From: Mycobacterium sp.
GTDB taxonomy: Bacteria; Actinomycetota; Actinomycetes; Mycobacteriales; Mycobacteriaceae
NCBI GenBank assembly: GCA_020438865.1
Contig: JAGQTU010000033.1
Span: 1-38,133 of the forward strand
Length of the DNA stretch: 38,133 nt
Reading direction: 5' to 3'
Shown here: one piece after another, positions 23,936 through 38,133 of the stretch
Position numbering within the stretch: the first letter of the stretch is position 1
How the letters are laid out: every line of letters begins with the position of its first letter
Notes under the pieces: model-generated
The model's input: the letters and a program-made list of their open reading frames with translations, nothing else
Databases searched by the model: none
Told to the model about the DNA's origin: nothing
Translations under genes and position numbers: made by a program

Positions 23936-25189
23936 GTGATCGACCTCAAACTGCTGCGCGACGACCCCGACGTGGTGCGCCGGTCCCAGCTCAGCCGTGG
24001 CGAGGACCCGGCCCTGGTGGATGCGCTGCTGGCCGCCGACACCGCGCGCCGGGCCGCGATCTCCACCGCGGACACCCTGCGCGCCGAGCAGAAGGCCGCC
24101 AGCAAGAAGGTCGGCTCGGCGGCGCCGGACCAGCGTACGGCCCTGCTGAAGGCGGCCAAAGAGCTTGCCGCACAGGTCAAGAGCGCCGAAAGCGCACAGG
24201 CCGAGGCGGAGGCCGCGTTCACCGCCGCTCACATGGCGATCTCCAACGTCGTCATCGACGGCGTTCCGGCCGGTGGTGAGGACGACTACGTGGTGCTCGA
24301 CGTGGTCGGGGAGCCCACCCGGCTGCCGGATCCGAAGGACCACCTCGAACTCGGCGAGAGGCTCGGGCTGATCGACATGGAGCGCGGCGCGAAGGTGTCC
24401 GGCTCCCGGTTCTACTTCCTGACCGGCCGGGGCGCGCTGTTGCAGCTGGGCCTGCTGCAACTCGCGGTGCGGTTGGCGACCGACAACGGCTTCACCCTGA
24501 TGATCCCGCCGGTGCTGGTGCGCCCCGAGGTGATGGCCGGCACCGGCTTCCTGGGGGCCCATGCCGACGAGATCTACCGGGTCGAACACGACGACCTCTA
24601 TCTGGTCGGTACCTCCGAGGTGCCGCTGGCCGGCTACCACTCAGCCGAGATCCTCGACCTGTCGGGCGGCCCGCTGCGCTACGCCGGCTGGTCGTCGTGC
24701 TTCCGCCGGGAGGCCGGCAGCTACGGCAAGGACACCCGCGGCATCATCCGGGTGCACCAGTTCGACAAGGTGGAGGGCTTCGTCTACTGCAAGCCCGAGG
24801 ACGCCGAGGCCGAACACCAGCGGCTGCTGGGCTGGCAGCGGCAGATGCTCGCGCTGATCGGGGTGCCCTACCGGGTGATCGACGTCGCCGCAGGCGATCT
24901 CGGCTCGTCGGCCGCCCGCAAGTTCGACTGCGAGGCGTGGGTGCCCACGCAGCAGGCCTACCGGGAACTGACCTCGACCTCCAACTGCACCACCTTCCAG
25001 GCTCGCCGGCTGGCCACCCGTTACCGCGACGAGACGGGCAAGCCGCAGATCGCCGCGACGCTCAACGGCACCCTGGCCACCACCCGCTGGCTGGTCGCGA
25101 TCCTGGAGAACCATCAACAACCGGACGGCAGTGTGCGGGTGCCCGCCGCTCTGGTTCCCTTCGTCGGGACGGAGGTCCTGCAACCGTGA
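23936..25189 (+). CDS. serS: Seryl-tRNA synthetase
   Basis: 417 residues, Rv3834c orthologue (419). It charges tRNA-Ser with serine. The N-terminal two-helix coiled-coil arm (about 25-105, rich in Ala, Lys and Glu) holds the tRNA long variable arm. The class II core has the [15 protein letters not shown] serine-binding region, motif 2 ([26 protein letters not shown]), [13 protein letters not shown] and motif 3 ([19 protein letters not shown]). GTG 23936 is chosen because homologues begin with [17 protein letters not shown]. The next gene overlaps its stop (GTGA), so the pair is coupled. No T-box is seen upstream, and the promoter appears leaderless. Confidence 0.97.
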
Positions 25190-26004
25190 TCGAACTCGAC
25201 CTCGAGGAGTTGCGTAGCTGGTTCGGGTTCGGGGTGGCGGGCAACTTCGCCGGCCACCTCGACCAGGCCGGCGAGGCGGTCGACTTCGCGACCGTGGCGG
25301 CCGAGGAGGGTGCGCCCAAGGGCATCTTCCCTTGGTATGCACCGGGATACGACAGCTTCCTCGGCGAGTTCCCGTTGTCCCACGACGCCCTGATGGTGCC
25401 GACCGAGGGTGCCGAGGACGGCGGCCCGCTCAACCTGCAGATCGAGCCCGAGGTGGCGCTCGCCTGCCGGGTGGTCTGGCATGGCGACACGGTGTCGAGC
25501 CTGCAGCCGTTCGCGCTCGGCGCCTTCAACGACTGCTCCATCCGCAGGCCCAACGCGCCGAAGATCAGCTACAAGAAGAACTGGGGCCCGGCCTCCAAAG
25601 GTGTTGCGCACCAGTTCTTCGACATCAGCGACCTCACGCCGGACGGCCCGACCGCGACGCTGCGCCTGCTGTGCCACCTGCGCACCGCCGACGGAGTGCA
25701 CCACGAGTACGGGGTGGACAGCCCACTGCTCGGTTATTCGTACTACGGCGAGGTGCTGCTCGACTGGATCGTGGAACGGCTGGCCAACCAGAAGGGCGCA
25801 CCGGAGACGCCCCTGGAGGACGTCGGGGCGCTGCTGGTGGCCTGCGGGCGTCCGGAGCACGTGCTGATCGGCATCGGCGCCACCCGGTACACCAAGCTGG
25901 GCGAGTCGACGTATCTCAAGCCCGGCGACGAGGCGATCGTCCGGGTCTACGACACCGAGAGCGACGCACGCTCCGAACTTCGCCAACTGGTGTGGGAACC
26001 GTGA
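25186..26004 (+). CDS. Conserved protein of unknown function (DUF5718-like), coupled to serS
   Basis: 272 residues from GTG 25186, overlapping the serS stop as GTGA, with GGAGGT upstream inside serS. Soluble; no signal peptide. Distinct segments are [20 protein letters not shown] and [31 protein letters not shown], followed by [20 protein letters not shown]. These resemble what I remember of DUF5718, with a loose likeness to fumarylacetoacetase-fold proteins (acidic residues in a beta-rich core), but catalytic residues cannot be assigned. I do not recall it beside serS in M. tuberculosis. An AT-richer gap follows. Confidence 0.75.
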
Positions 26005-26260
26005 TTAGGTGTGTTGCAAAACACGCGGCAACGAATTCGACAACTTGTCTCTAATTTCAGCGGCGTCAATATAACCGCACGGCGGCGACCGCGGTTGGAT
26101 ACCGGTCGACGCCCTGCCAGGGGGCATTTCGACGCATTCCTTTGATTGCCCGGCCCAAATAGACCGCCGGACTTTTTCCTAATTCAACATCGCCGCCGCG
26201 TGTGCGCTACCGTCAATTTGTCCCCACTGAATTGGGCGAGGGGCCGAGGGGGTTGACGCG
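26005..26260. other. Lower-GC intergenic region before the prenyltransferase gene
   Basis: 256 bp with several AT-rich stretches, unlike the coding DNA around it. A small inverted repeat, GTGTTGCAAAACAC (26011-26024), may end the serS transcript. TACCGT (26208-26213) is a possible -10 for the next gene. No gene is seen. Confidence 0.5.
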
Positions 26261-26914
26261 GTGGACCGGTTACCGGCTCATGTGGGGTTGATCCCGGATG
26301 GGCTGCGCCGGTGGGCACGGGCGAACGGCGCGACGCTGGCGGATGCCTATCGCCGCGGTTCGGAGAAGGTGACCGAAATCCTGCTGGCGCTGCAGCGCAA
26401 CGACGTGCAGACGGCGTCGGTGTACAACCTCAGCCGCGCCAACCTCGCCCGCCCGGACGATCAGCTGGAAGCGGTGTACGCCGCCTCCATCTACTTTCTG
26501 ACCACCCTGGTGCCCGCCAACTTCGACCCGGCGAAATGCAGCTTCCGGATGCACGGCGACCGCGACCTGCTGCCCGCGGAGTTCGTGGCGGCGGCGGAAA
26601 GCCTGGAAGCGACGATGACCGGGCCGGAGTTCCGGATCAACCTGCTCGCGGCCTACGACGCGGCGGACGAACTGCGCTCGGCCCATCGGCGGGCGCAGGC
26701 CCAGGAGTGCGATATCAACGACGCGTTCGAGATCGGTCGCGTCGACATGGTCATCCGCACCACCGCCGAGCCGTTGCTCAGCGGCTTCCTGCCGTACCAG
26801 AGCCAGTACGCCCAGCTGCTCTTCCTGGACACCCCGCTCAACGACCTGGACGCCGCCCGGGTGGACGGCCTGGTCGCCGACTACCGGCTGATGCCGCAGT
26901 TGCACGGACGCTAG
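26261..26914 (+). CDS. Non-canonical cis-prenyltransferase (UppS-fold)
   Basis: 217 residues, shorter than typical UppS (about 250). The fold signature is clear: HVGLIPDGLRRWARANG aligns with the UppS start and keeps the catalytic Asp (D13) but has Leu where the Asn of DGNxRWA should be. NLSRANLARPDDQLEAVYAA, INLLAAYDAADEL and IRTTAEPLLSGFLPYQSQYAQLLFLD follow. In the last block the Arg two residues after Glu (EHR/EQR in UppS) is Leu (EPLL), while the Arg of RTTAE is kept. So it is a cis-prenyltransferase relative with altered diphosphate-binding residues, perhaps making short or irregular prenyl products or using another acceptor, as Rv3378c does. GTG 26261 has GAGGGGG upstream. The FAD gene follows by 2 nt. 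Confidence 0.85.
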   Translation: MDRLPAHVGLIPDGLRRWARANGATLADAYRRGSEKVTEILLALQRNDVQTASVYNLSRANLARPDDQLEAVYAASIYFLTTLVPANFDPAKCSFRMHGDRDLLPAEFVAAAESLEATMTGPEFRINLLAAYDAADELRSAHRRAQAQECDINDAFEIGRVDMVIRTTAEPLLSGFLPYQSQYAQLLFLDTPLNDLDAARVDGLVADYRLMPQLHGR

Positions 26915-26916
26915 CC

Positions 26917-28323
26917 ATGGACCAGAACCCAGTGATCATCGGCGCGGGTCCCGCGGGGCTCACCGCCGCACTGAAGCTGGTGGAGCGCGGCGTGAAACCG
27001 CGCATCATCGAATCGGCGAGCGAGGTCGGCGGCCTGGCCCGCACCTGCGGCCGCGGCGAGTGGCGGGTGGACCCGGGCGGCCACCGTTTCTTCACCAAGA
27101 GCGAGGAGATCCTGGACCTGTGGCGCTCGCTGCTGCCCGCCGACCAGTGGGTCGCCGTGCAGCGCAGTTCGGCCATGCTGGTCCACGGCCGGTTCGTCCA
27201 GTACCCGCTCGTCGCCCGTGACCTGATGGCCCAGTTGGGTCCGCGCCATGCCCTCCAGGGGCTCGGGAGTTTCCTGTGGGCCAAACTCGGCGGTAGCGGC
27301 AACCACGACGATTCGGACAGCTTCCGGGAGTGGGGCGAACAGGAGTTCGGGCCCTACTGGTACAAGATGTTCTTCGACGGCTACGTCCGCAAGACCTGGC
27401 TGGCCGACCCCGACCACATCACCAGCGACTGGGCGAACCAGCGGATCAAGCCGATCAACTGGCGGCTGGGCAAGGAGCCGGCCCTCGAAGAGCAGGACGC
27501 CTTTCTTTACCCGCGGCTCGGACCCGGCCAGCTCTGGGATGCGGCCGCCGCCCGGCTGGCGGAAGACGGGGTCGTTCCCGCATTCAACACGCGGGTGGTC
27601 AAACTGGGCTTCGACGGAGAGGGCTGGACGGTCTTCCTGGACAGCGGCGAGACCCTGACGACGGACGCGGTCTTCTCCACCATGCCGCTGCGCCAGTTGG
27701 TGGACGCGTTGGATCCCGCCCCGCCCCGGCCCATCCGCTCGATGGCCGCCGCGCTGCGGCACCGGTCGCTGATCACGGTCGCCGTCGCCCTGCGGACGCC
27801 GCTGGATGCGCCCTACAACTGGGTGTACACGCCGAGCAAGAAGCTGCGGGTGGGACGGATCCAGAACTACAGCCGTTGGTCGGATGCGCTCGCCCCGAAG
27901 GGCTGGGCGGGGAGCTTCCTGGGGCTCGAGTACTACACGGCGCCAGGCGACGAGCTCTGTGCGGCCGACGACGAAGAAATGAAAAGCATTGCCCACCAAG
28001 ACCTGCACACGTTGGGCATCGACGACTCCGACATCGACCGGATGATGGTCGAGCGCATGCCGTTCGCCTACCCGATCTACGACGACGCCCGGGATCGCAG
28101 CGTCTCGTACGTCCGCGACTATCTGACCAGTCACTACCCGACACTGCACCCGATGGGGCGCAACGGGACCCACCACTACGACAACCAGGACCACGCGATG
28201 CTGTCGGCGCTGCGCAGCGTGGCCCTGTACTTCGGTGAGCACGTCGATCCGTGGCAGGTCAACACCGATATCAGCTACCACGAGTCCGGGCTGCTCAACG
28301 GCGAGGAGCAAGCGGCCGGCTAG
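26917..28323 (+). CDS. FAD-dependent oxidoreductase of the amine oxidase / UGM-like superfamily
   Basis: 468 residues. The Rossmann dinucleotide site is VIIGAGPAGLTAALKL at the N-terminus. GGLARTCGRGEWRVDPGGHRFFTK is typical of protoporphyrinogen-oxidase and UDP-galactopyranose-mutase relatives, and the C-terminal FAD contact falls in DHAMLSALRSVALYFG with VNTDISYHES. SDSFREWGEQEFGPYWYKMFFDGYVRKTW forms the substrate domain. Substrate unknown; relatives act on prenyl, steroid, porphyrin or sugar-nucleotide substrates. It begins 2 nt after the cis-prenyltransferase stop, so a shared prenyl pathway is a good inference. Its TAG stop and that of the Rv3819-like gene on the other strand share the palindrome CTAG (28320-28323). 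Confidence 0.85.
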   Translation: MDQNPVIIGAGPAGLTAALKLVERGVKPRIIESASEVGGLARTCGRGEWRVDPGGHRFFTKSEEILDLWRSLLPADQWVAVQRSSAMLVHGRFVQYPLVARDLMAQLGPRHALQGLGSFLWAKLGGSGNHDDSDSFREWGEQEFGPYWYKMFFDGYVRKTWLADPDHITSDWANQRIKPINWRLGKEPALEEQDAFLYPRLGPGQLWDAAAARLAEDGVVPAFNTRVVKLGFDGEGWTVFLDSGETLTTDAVFSTMPLRQLVDALDPAPPRPIRSMAAALRHRSLITVAVALRTPLDAPYNWVYTPSKKLRVGRIQNYSRWSDALAPKGWAGSFLGLEYYTAPGDELCAADDEEMKSIAHQDLHTLGIDDSDIDRMMVERMPFAYPIYDDARDRSVSYVRDYLTSHYPTLHPMGRNGTHHYDNQDHAMLSALRSVALYFGEHVDPWQVNTDISYHESGLLNGEEQAAG

Positions 28324-28661
28324 TGCCGGTCGAGCACCTCGTCGAGCATGGCCAGGAACTCCTCCGGATGCACCGGGGTGAACGCGGGGCGTGGGTAGGA
28401 CCCGGGCACATCCACAGTGACCAGGGTGGTCTTCAGCGGCCTGCGGATGTCCAGTGGCAGCCACCGCCGCAGATCCGAACTGCCCCATAGCCGGAACCGC
28501 TGCATCAAGAGTCCGAGCGGCTCGGCCGAATAACCGCGGATCGCGCGCACCGGAATGACTTTCGAGGTGCCGGAGGGAAAATGGTAGCGCCGCAGCGTCA
28601 GGGCGTGCCGGTCCAGTTGGACCAGGCCGTCGTCGTAGTACTGCCGCGGCGGTGCGCTCAC
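28320..28661 (-). CDS. Conserved protein, Rv3819-like, function unknown
   Basis: 113 residues from GTG 28661, which overlaps the stop of the upstream gene as GTGA, with GAGGTG upstream; a GTG at 28673 is an alternative. Soluble and basic, with LTLRRYHFPSGTSKVIPVRAIRGY, WGSSDLRRWLPLD and TTLVTVDVPG. The pattern of beta-strands looks like a PH-like domain, but this is a guess. Coupled to the Rieske protein gene as in M. tuberculosis (Rv3818-Rv3819). Confidence 0.82.
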   Translation of the reverse strand: MSAPPRQYYDDGLVQLDRHALTLRRYHFPSGTSKVIPVRAIRGYSAEPLGLLMQRFRLWGSSDLRRWLPLDIRRPLKTTLVTVDVPGSYPRPAFTPVHPEEFLAMLDEVLDRH

Positions 28662-30208
28662 GCCCGGGAACACCTCAGCTGGTGGCCCCTAGCGGTCAGG
28701 CAGCGCCCGGTCGCCAGATCCCATTGCCAGCCGTGCAGATTGCAGGTCAGCGTCGAGTCCTCCACCACGCCGAACTTCGACAGGTCGGCCTTCAGGTGCG
28801 GGCAGCGGCGCTGAATCTCCCAGCCGTCCAACGTGATCGTCGCGGTGTCGTCGTGCGTCTCGGCGAACCAGCCATCGGCGTAGGCGATCCGCTCGTCGGT
28901 GAGGCACTTGAAGAAGGTGTACAGGTATTCGTTGTAACCGCCCACCCGCCACGCGCGGAACCGGGTGGACAGGAAGATCGTGTTCACCCAGTCCGGCTCG
29001 TCGTCGCGGAGCACCGTGCGCACCAACTCCGGAGCGATCTCGAAGCCGTACCTGAACTTCTCATCCGGAATGGGTTCGCGCACAGCACGTTTGGGGAAGT
29101 CCAGCACCACCGTTTCCGGGCCGAGTCGCAGTTCGACCGGGTAGCCGATACCGTCGCAGATCTGGTCGCTCTGGACCATGATCGGCTCGAACAGCGCGCG
29201 CAGCGGCTCCAGCAGCGGATCACCGGTCGCCGGCGCCCAGGCGGCCTTCTCCGCGGCCAGCACCGGCGCCATCCGCTGCGCGTAGGCGGCGATGTAGTCG
29301 GCCTTGCCGGTGGTGAAGATCGCCTCCACTTCGTCGACGGGAATCGGGTGGGTCAGCGAATTCAGCTGCGCCCCGGTGAAATCCGCAACCGAACCGGGGA
29401 TCATCAGCAACCCCCCGTCGTGGCCGTGCAGCCGCATCTGCTCCAGGAAGACCATCTCGTCGGGGAAGATGTTGGCCGGATCGCCGTGGTCGTCGTTGAG
29501 GTCGCGCAGTTCGGGATCCAGGAAACACGGCGGCCCTGCCGAGGGGATCACCCAGGTGGCGCCGGCGTCGGCGATGTACTGTCGGCAGCGGTCCATCCCG
29601 CGCTGGCGCTTCTGGCTGCCGAACGACTCCTTGGCGCGGGCCGGCATGTCGTAGACCATCGGGTACCAGATGGCCCCGGAGTACTGCAGCATGTGCACGT
29701 CGATGTGGCCGAACTCCTCGGCCAGCATGTCCAGCGCCAGCGGCCGCGAGTCGTTCATGTTGAACACGGTGGTGGTGCCGTCGGAGATGACGATGCCGGA
29801 GTCGCCGATCGGGCCGTCGGCCGGGGCGCGCAGCGCGATGACCATCACGTCCAGATCGCCCTTGGGCCCGCTGACGCGGTGCTTGACCGAGTCGGTGGTC
29901 TCGAAGAACCGGTGAAAGCCCAGCTTCTCCAGCTCCCGCTTGAGGTCGGGGACCGGGAAGTCCGGCAGCAGGACCACCGCGTCCTTGTTGACGTGCTCGG
30001 CGAGCAACTGCGGATCGAAGTGGTCCTTGTGCAGGTGCGAAATGTATAGGTAGTCGCAGTCGCCGAGGGCCGCCCAGTCCAGGCCGCTGTTGTCCGGGAA
30101 CACGAACCACGAGCCGAAGTACGCCGGGTTCAGCCACGGGTCACACAGAACGCTGCCCGCTTGGGTATCGATCCGAAAACCGGCGTGGCCGATGCATGTG
30201 ACCTGCAC
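28658..30208 (-). CDS. Metallo-beta-lactamase fold protein fused to a Rieske domain (Rv3818)
   Basis: 516 residues, equal to my memory of Rv3818. The N-terminal domain (about 1-300) is a UlaG-like metallo-beta-lactamase fold: VTCIGHAGFRI, VLCDPWLNP, and the metal motif YISHLHKDHFD. The C-terminal 110 residues are a Rieske [2Fe-2S] domain: RRCPHLKADLSKFG and LTCNLHGWQWDLATGRC supply the Cys-His pairs. The combination recalls CMP-sialic-acid hydroxylase, a Rieske monooxygenase with a lactamase-like catalytic domain, though there the Rieske comes first. A hydroxylase function is inference. GTG 30208 has GGAAGAGG 5 nt upstream; longer reading starts lack this. Divergent from the acyltransferase genes. 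Confidence 0.92.
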   Translation of the reverse strand: MQVTCIGHAGFRIDTQAGSVLCDPWLNPAYFGSWFVFPDNSGLDWAALGDCDYLYISHLHKDHFDPQLLAEHVNKDAVVLLPDFPVPDLKRELEKLGFHRFFETTDSVKHRVSGPKGDLDVMVIALRAPADGPIGDSGIVISDGTTTVFNMNDSRPLALDMLAEEFGHIDVHMLQYSGAIWYPMVYDMPARAKESFGSQKRQRGMDRCRQYIADAGATWVIPSAGPPCFLDPELRDLNDDHGDPANIFPDEMVFLEQMRLHGHDGGLLMIPGSVADFTGAQLNSLTHPIPVDEVEAIFTTGKADYIAAYAQRMAPVLAAEKAAWAPATGDPLLEPLRALFEPIMVQSDQICDGIGYPVELRLGPETVVLDFPKRAVREPIPDEKFRYGFEIAPELVRTVLRDDEPDWVNTIFLSTRFRAWRVGGYNEYLYTFFKCLTDERIAYADGWFAETHDDTATITLDGWEIQRRCPHLKADLSKFGVVEDSTLTCNLHGWQWDLATGRCLTARGHQLRCSRA

Positions 30209-30338
30209 GTATCCTCTTCCCAATGGTCGTCGCACCCATGACGAGCTTAGCGGCCCGGGTGGGGGGCGACCGCCTCGCCCGGGGCCGGTGCCGATCACCG
30301 GTACCCGAAGGCGGCTGTGCCGGGTGTGTGCGCGGCAC

Positions 30339-35639: not shown

Positions 35640-38133
<2,494 letters not shown>

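Follow-up and report, generated by a model that had tools for sequence, protein, structure and literature searches.

What does a cis-prenyltransferase with a rebuilt substrate pocket do beside a flavoenzyme, and what ties the two genes together? The question is raised by a stretch of 38,133 nucleotides (nt) of Mycobacterium sp. DNA (contig JAGQTU010000033.1 of assembly GCA_020438865.1; the whole stretch is here called the window), in which the gene for a cis-prenyltransferase (CPT) of 217 amino acids (26261..26914, plus strand, GTG start) is followed by that for a flavin adenine dinucleotide (FAD) enzyme of 468 amino acids (26917..28323, plus strand, ATG start). An earlier note on this DNA, made from the sequence alone, had interpreted the two as a candidate new prenyl pathway. 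A non-standard CPT and a fixed pair are what is left of this interpretation, while the identity of the flavoenzyme and the proposed link to Rv3378c are not, and "prenyl pathway" gives way to a module for lipid-linked glycans. We assign a probability of about one half to the reading that the pair tailors lipid-linked glycans, with a CPT that would work without ordinary elongation by isopentenyl diphosphate (IPP) and a flavoenzyme that would act on a diphosphate-linked intermediate.

The altered pocket of the prenyltransferase

The CPT passes the curated cut-off of Pfam family PF01255 (98 bits versus 27) but scores under the cut-off with each of the 16 NCBIfam models that it matches, among them the uppS equivalog TIGR00055 (77.2 versus 109.55 bits). 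Two further CPTs are encoded in the genome (4.96 Mb in 366 contigs, 90.9% complete), which score 255.5 and 235.9 bits with PF01255 as compared to 97.3 for the CPT of the pair; the housekeeping prenyl synthases are thus probably those two, and the earlier statement that the protein is unlikely to be a standard undecaprenyl synthase is supported, also with regard to decaprenyl synthases. The motif changes noted then are also real: DGL is present for DGN and RTTAEPLLS for RTSGExRLS, with the catalytic Asp kept.

These positions were compared between 44 mycobacterial-type family members (loci L083 to L126) and 49 canonical-like CPTs, the latter being the nearest matches of genome searches and hence no random sample. 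The catalytic Asp13 (26297..26299, plus strand, as for all residues of the CPT) is found in 44/44 family and 49/49 canonical-like rows. Leu15 (26303..26305) stands for the Asn of DGN, a position occupied by Leu in 31 and Met in 13 family rows as against Asn in 44 and His in five canonical-like ones; Leu172 (26774..26776) replaces the Arg of ExR, the ligand of the IPP diphosphate, with Leu in 44/44 family rows and Arg in 49/49 canonical-like rows. Two changes come in addition to those of the earlier note, namely Gln185 (26813..26815) for the conserved Glu of YAE, which is Glu in only 6/44 family rows versus 49/49, and Leu214 (26900..26902) for the Arg of the C-terminal RxG (LHG in the window), which is Arg in 11/44 versus 49/49. 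In what we take to be the E. coli numbering, Asp13 corresponds to D26 and Leu172 to R200; presumably in the same numbering, the catalytic Asp, Arg30, and Ser71, Asn74, Arg77, Arg194, and Ser202 (Ser58, Asn61, Arg64, Arg166, and Ser174 by window numbering) are kept in 44/44 family rows, whereas Asn28 and Arg200 are each lost in 44/44, Glu213 in 38/44, and the Arg of RxG in 33/44.

According to passages of PMC7573591, the phosphate in the second site (S2) of human CPT is held by R205, R211, and S213, and RxG contributes to both sites; Leu172 was matched to R211 by motif order, so that this correspondence is a presumed one. For the M. tuberculosis decaprenyl synthase a passage in PMC6450523 states that Asp76 binds magnesium and that Arg292 contacts the diphosphates; Arg292 is taken here as the Arg of RxG. 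Together, the conservation pattern and these residue roles show, as far as alignments can do so, that the CPT keeps the side of the allylic diphosphate (S1), that is, the donor side, including Arg30 and Arg77, and that most residues of the IPP-diphosphate side (S2) are replaced, mainly by Leu. The gene is under purifying selection, as is its partner: for six pairs (the window with L083, and five others), dN/dS is 0.13–0.29 for the CPT and 0.09–0.15 for the FAD enzyme.

A fixed pair of genes

In the window, the FAD open reading frame begins 2 nt past the CPT stop, as had been noted (CPT end at 26914, FAD ATG at 26917). Among 100 related genomes, the own one included, 12 loci with CPT relatives of 45–74% identity came to light, spread over 11 of the 59 other genomes of the genus; none of the 40 other genomes of the same order has one at that level. 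At all 12 loci the FAD gene comes after the CPT, whereas searches with the 13 other window proteins gave no match in their surroundings. A survey was then available for 297 genomes of the genus (own included; completeness is 90% or more and contamination 5% or less in 275 of them), in which at most ten first-look candidates per genome were scored for the CPT and at most five for the FAD enzyme and for a polyprenyl-phosphate sugar transferase (PHPT, see below), which makes the resulting counts lower bounds. Of these genomes, 50 have the CPT (E<=1e-30) and 52 have the FAD gene (E<=1e-60); at 51 of 51 loci in the 50 genomes the FAD gene lies directly 3' of the CPT on the same strand, with 5–76 nt between match ends. 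The two genomes with an FAD gene only turned out to be truncations at contig ends, as the match in one (G008) stops 2 bases short of the end of its contig of 3,146 bases and that in the other (G185) starts at base 3.

A scan of named genomes yielded 64 loci and an FAD gene after the CPT in 44 of 44 mycobacterial-type rows, a count that excludes 19 distant rows as well as L139, whose CPT is a fragment at the end of a contig; holders of the pair include M. austroafricanum, M. vaccae, M. chubuense, M. parafortuitum, M. iranicum, M. hodleri, M. tusciae, and M. novocastrense. The earlier note had staked its proposal on co-occurrence of the two genes in other genomes, and their adjacency at 51/51 loci answers this in the affirmative. 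Since the relatives examined have the same pairing, spacing, and substitutions, the arrangement is not due to chance.

The flavoenzyme resembles UDP-galactopyranose mutase

The FAD protein matches PF01593 (Amino_oxidase) with 72.9 bits and passes the equivalog cut-off of NF005547 (PRK07208.1-3) with 668.6 versus 380 bits; the family is curated as "hypothetical protein" and has no function on record. Its best solved relatives in a search of the PDB are UDP-galactopyranose mutases (UGM), with 4dsg at the top. Protoporphyrinogen oxidase, the comparison suggested by the earlier note, was rejected on account of these PDB relatives and of the scores, as the best score with such a model among the families listed (25 of 38) is 51.3 against a cut-off of 517 bits. 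Internal TGA codons in FAD matches were ordinary stops read through by the search at 4/4 loci checked.

The diphosphate-binding residues R182, Y317, and R327 of the Aspergillus fumigatus UGM correspond to Arg176, Tyr304, and Arg314 of the FAD enzyme, and Y419 and Y453, in a second stretch of the alignment with 3uka, to Tyr385 and Tyr421. The roles of the A. fumigatus residues are those given in Table 3 of PMC3624792, and R182 and R327 are described as important for this enzyme in a passage of PMC3893270. All five residues are invariant in 23/23 aligned rows (the window, 18 of the 44 mycobacterial rows, 2 Streptomyces, 2 Altiarchaeota). Conservation of this set argues that the substrate of the FAD enzyme likely bears a diphosphate, which could be part of a prenyl chain, a sugar lipid, or a nucleotide.

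Polysaccharide genes in the neighborhood

At 8 of the first 12 loci a protein of one and the same similarity cluster is encoded beside the pair; three of these proteins, PHPTs, pass TIGR03025, the model for exopolysaccharide priming transferases, with 388.1, 391.6, and 417 versus 295.55 bits. Throughout the 297 genomes (a strong PHPT match being one of E<=1e-120 to P0001) a PHPT gene lies within 6 kb of the pair at 38 of 51 loci, 30 times upstream on the same strand at a distance of 21–489 nt and eight times downstream on the other strand. A PHPT is present in 49 of the 50 genomes with the CPT versus 34 of the 247 others (Fisher p 2.6e-32, ignoring phylogeny), and in the named loci a match of more than 400 bits was obtained in 33 of 44, with one more at 394. 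The PHPT of the window genome itself (393.6 bits with TIGR03025) is encoded on another contig (G000:C366), preceded by a gene for a GAF-domain protein (locus L078).

At seven named loci the order GAF-PHPT-CPT-FAD is accompanied by a GT4 glycosyltransferase, three membrane proteins (with 7–10, 6–7, and 2–3 predicted transmembrane segments), and a beta-helix protein, and the whole looks like an exopolysaccharide cluster. Only weak Pfam matches were obtained for the membrane proteins, the best being O-ag_pol_Wzy with 14.5 of 26.6 bits, so that labels such as flippase, polymerase, or chain-length determinant rest on their look and on hydropathy counts. As 38/51 loci stand beside a PHPT, and some beside further polysaccharide genes, "lipid-linked glycan module" fits the pair better than "prenyl pathway".

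The GAF-domain protein precedes the PHPT in many mycobacteria, and members of its cluster are found in 32 of the 44 named loci (e.g., L078:7912-8601); a role in the regulation of polysaccharide synthesis is conceivable for it.

Distant relatives

Trees were calculated from 59 chosen rows (16 of the 44 mycobacterial, 26 of the 49 canonical-like, and 16 of the 19 distant ones, and the window). The mycobacterial rows fall on one side of a branch together with two rows each from Streptomyces and Bacteroidota and one from Chloroflexota; the branch has 100/96 support and was also found after removal of the motif columns, and the tree program issued a warning that the Chloroflexota and Bacteroidota rows form a long-branch join. 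Both Streptomyces CPTs read DGT and lack the Glu as well as the Arg of the ExR block; both Bacteroidota CPTs have DGG and no Arg there.

In each of the two Streptomyces loci, a gene of the FAD kind (25% identity) adjoins the CPT; for the protein of L127, PRK07208.1-3 is the best model, below its cut-off, and the second locus, L128, came from the scan of named genomes. When the pair was searched for in 199 Streptomyces genomes (E<=1e-30), none of the 198 besides the query's own had it, and among 396 Actinomycetota genomes a family-level score was reached in the own genome only (388.7 bits, the next best being 109.4). The Bacteroidota CPT of L129 lies within a cluster of glycosyltransferase genes and the Chloroflexota CPT of L131 has a sugar-1-phosphate transferase (PF00953) 2.3 kb away; no full-length match to the PRK07208.1-4 model was found in these two genomes. 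At two Altiarchaeota loci the FAD gene, whose product is above the PRK07208.1-4 cut-off, is located ~0.5 kb from a CPT that is followed by an oligosaccharyltransferase gene of the STT3/AglB type. Among 29 Altiarchaeota genomes, four have the FAD type (E<=1e-40; six matches), with a CPT near two of the six matches, both in the genomes from which the two loci came.

Two side observations belong here. In the Altiarchaeota rows (L145:7356-13533 and L146:8064-13603), the gene of the PRK07208.1-4 flavoenzyme is followed by one that looks PIN-like and lies on the opposite strand, then by those of a canonical CPT and of the STT3/AglB-type protein; genes that look like glycosyltransferases come before them. 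CPTs of Armatimonadota and Planctomycetota (L132–L134 and L136–L138) make up a second atypical group and, in the alignment, have DGN together with RWGGxRRLSGFLP(V/I)Q for RTSGExRLS and Asp for the Glu of YAE.

What the pair may do

Most secure within the proposed reading is that the pair belongs to lipid-linked glycan synthesis; the CPT, judging from its pocket residues, has probably abandoned the usual elongation with IPP, and a diphosphate-linked partner from that pathway is a plausible substrate of the UGM-like flavoenzyme. With the two genes as a conserved, relocatable operon that works alongside the PHPT in making lipid-linked glycans, the reading as a whole is about an even call. In such a pathway the CPT would take a ready-made prenyl diphosphate and either ionize it or transfer the prenyl group without repeated addition of IPP; the diphosphate of the acceptor, should it have one, would be held in a different manner. 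The flavoenzyme would then carry out chemistry of the UGM type via N5 of the flavin on a diphosphate-linked intermediate, candidates being a prenyl diphosphate, a lipid-linked sugar, or a nucleotide sugar, and the product might feed or decorate a surface polysaccharide primed by the PHPT. The sharpest version, in which the CPT clade has given up IPP and passes the prenyl group from its diphosphate to another acceptor within polysaccharide synthesis while a flavoenzyme of UGM fold attacks the diphosphate-bearing carbon of a prenyl- or lipid-linked substrate via flavin N5, is rather doubtful as a whole.

Several observations weigh against tailoring of lipid-linked glycans by an IPP-independent CPT. 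Ser58 and Asn61, which we take to be the proton-shuttle pair, seem intact in 44/44 family rows. Such an Asn-Ser pair serves as proton shuttle of the ordinary condensation according to a passage in PMC6450523, and the R211Q exchange in human CPT is reported in PMC7573591 to lower activity only about 5-fold; ordinary condensation with IPP may therefore still take place. As to the context, the association with the PHPT was calculated regardless of phylogeny, and 13 of 51 loci, the window included, have no PHPT within 6 kb. Among the distant relatives, the position of the Chloroflexota row in the tree is a long-branch join, and its CPT has DGT yet keeps the Arg and the Glu of YAE; no glycan-synthesis gene was recognized near the Streptomyces pair, where the neighbors were mostly judged by eye and one was scanned; the CPTs of Altiarchaeota keep the canonical motifs, and four of the six FAD matches there have no CPT in the flanks that were fetched. 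Further, seven PHPT loci of genomes without the pair were inspected as controls; the PHPT is a near one at L081, L206, L207, and L208 and a more distant one at L209, L210, and L211. One of them, L208 (6095-13734), contains GAF, PHPT, GT4, and beta-helix genes and both larger membrane proteins but not the pair; the six others lack the pair as well, and L209 and L210 have a GT4-like neighbor (31–34% identity). In view of L208, a requirement of the pair for polysaccharide synthesis was rejected; the pair thus accompanies the glycan system as an accessory and is not part of its core.

The alternative that survives best, although we consider it clearly less likely than tailoring, is a dedicated carrier together with a sugar mutase: the CPT would condense IPP by way of a rebuilt S2 site, supplying the polysaccharide with a carrier lipid whose length or stereochemistry is unusual, and the FAD enzyme would be a nucleotide-sugar mutase, merely co-transcribed, that converts pyranose to furanose. 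In its favor are the conserved Ser58, Asn61, Arg64, Arg166, and Ser174 of the CPT, the PHPT neighbors, the UGM diphosphate residues of the FAD enzyme, and the uracil-stacking Y104 and F158 of UGM, which are kept in the window enzyme as Tyr96 and Phe152. Against it speak the loss of R200 and of N28, each in 44/44 rows, the existence of the L208 cluster without the pair, and the equivalents of the uracil-binding F106 and Q107 of UGM and of the nearby N163, which the window enzyme does not keep; Ala is present at 107 also in the 4u8k chain compared, and Q107 is likewise absent from bacterial UGMs according to a passage in PMC3624792. Adjacency at 51/51 loci, while the PHPT is sometimes far away, also suggests a closer bond between CPT and FAD enzyme.

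A further case, in which the FAD enzyme would work on the lipid itself by reducing or isomerizing the first isoprene unit of a polyprenyl diphosphate made or bound by the CPT, leading to a dolichol-like carrier, appears improbable. It is true that carotene desaturases and isomerases belong to the same amine-oxidase superfamily (their matches are weak) and that FAD and CPT genes stand beside an oligosaccharyltransferase at the two Altiarchaeota loci; however, in the search of the PDB the FAD enzyme is far nearer to UGM than to any carotenoid enzyme, and its conserved residues include the UGM diphosphate set. A free terpenoid pathway, as envisaged by the earlier note, with an Rv3378c-like or lavandulyl-like product altered by the flavoenzyme, has gained no support and is the least likely of all, since the altered second site of the CPT and the finding of cyclolavandulyl synthase by the family profile (with 75.7 bits, a score that several ordinary isoprenyl transferases exceed) are set against the lack of a chain named Rv3378c at E<=0.01, the polysaccharide context, and the fact that no terpene cyclase was noticed beside the pair in the partly annotated gene lists.

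The locus in the window and elsewhere

A gap of 256 bp without strand assignment (26005..26260) precedes the pair; it was correctly described as lower in GC, as it has 57.8% GC versus ~0.66–0.71 in neighboring windows of 500 bp, and 192 of 251 aligned bases are identical between the window and L083. The promoter of the pair is perhaps located here. Directly 5' of the CPT, and thus between serS and the pair, is a DUF5718 gene (25186..26004, plus strand; PF18985, 245.5 bits) with an uncertain start; serS, named by look, comes before it. On the 3' side, a short open reading frame without Pfam match and then an Rv3818-type gene (28658..30298, minus strand; Pfam SCP2_Rv3818; matches to PF25451, PF00355, and PF13483) are encoded on the opposite strand. 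The product of the latter combines a beta-lactamase fold, an SCP2-like domain, and a Rieske domain in one chain. A separate glf-type open reading frame, named by look and alignment, is present at 35646-36953.

The earlier note had placed the pair between serS and Rv3819, where M. tuberculosis has the sulfolipid-1 locus; these gene names, and the equivalence to that position, are those of the note or assumed here. The position was seen in the window and its near relative L083 only, and at the other loci examined the pair is located elsewhere. L083, from a metagenome-assembled Mycobacterium and evidently the same contig as L080, is the nearest relative (93% identity) and has the order serS-DUF5718-CPT-FAD as in the window. 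Other sites of the pair are near purK and GtrA genes, ribosomal protein genes, a dus gene and the phoU/pst region, and tig/clpP genes (GtrA and Dus identified by Pfam, the rest by look). At L042:12998-15063, two transposase-like genes (by look, of IS21 type) lie ~3 kb from the CPT, a hint at movement of the cassette.

Significance

As a rule, a single housekeeping prenyl synthase is assumed to supply the lipid carriers of surface glycans. If the tailoring of lipid-linked glycans holds true, some bacteria would tailor the carrier, or the first sugar linked to it, for one polymer. The pair would suggest a function for the uncharacterized PRK07208 flavoenzyme family, offers a natural set of more than 40 CPTs with an altered IPP pocket, and hints that environmental mycobacteria possess a surface polysaccharide system. 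Nothing was found in the literature searched under the term PRK07208, nor on a combination of CPT and FAD-dependent oxidoreductase, which is no proof of absence; likewise, judged by titles, no mycobacterial exopolysaccharide system with a polyprenyl glycosylphosphotransferase was found.

Comparison with known systems

We know of no described counterpart for tailoring chemistry of this kind on lipid-linked glycans. With the enzymes of the UppS, Rv2361c, and Rv1086 type (PF01255), the CPT of the pair has in common the fold family (by Pfam), the catalytic Asp, the residues on the S1 side, and the order of motifs; it differs from them in the loss of Asn28 and Arg200 and mostly of Glu213 and the Arg of RxG. 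The nearest solved CPT to the family is 8WU7, for which no mention in the literature searched was found. Cyclolavandulyl diphosphate synthase (5ygj, 5gul) is a member of the CPT family with a non-standard condensation; the kinship with lavandulyl synthases considered by the earlier note thus extends to detection by the family profile, the score of 75.7 bits being weaker than those of several ordinary isoprenyl transferases (up to 124.6). The precedent of Rv3378c, for which a solved structure presumably exists, could not be substantiated, as none of the 35 PDB chains that the family profile retrieved at E<=0.01 is named Rv3378c or tuberculosinyl or diterpene synthase. Rv3378c (tuberculosinyladenosine synthase) shares with the CPT of the pair the cis-prenyltransferase superfamily, and uses adenosine rather than IPP as acceptor, according to a passage in PMC6450523. 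For the flavoenzyme, the closest known system is the UGM of eukaryotic type (4dsg, 4u8k, 3uka), whose profile match covers nearly the full length of the protein (E 1.7e-50) and whose flavin-side residues H63, R447, and N457 have kept equivalents in the FAD enzyme.

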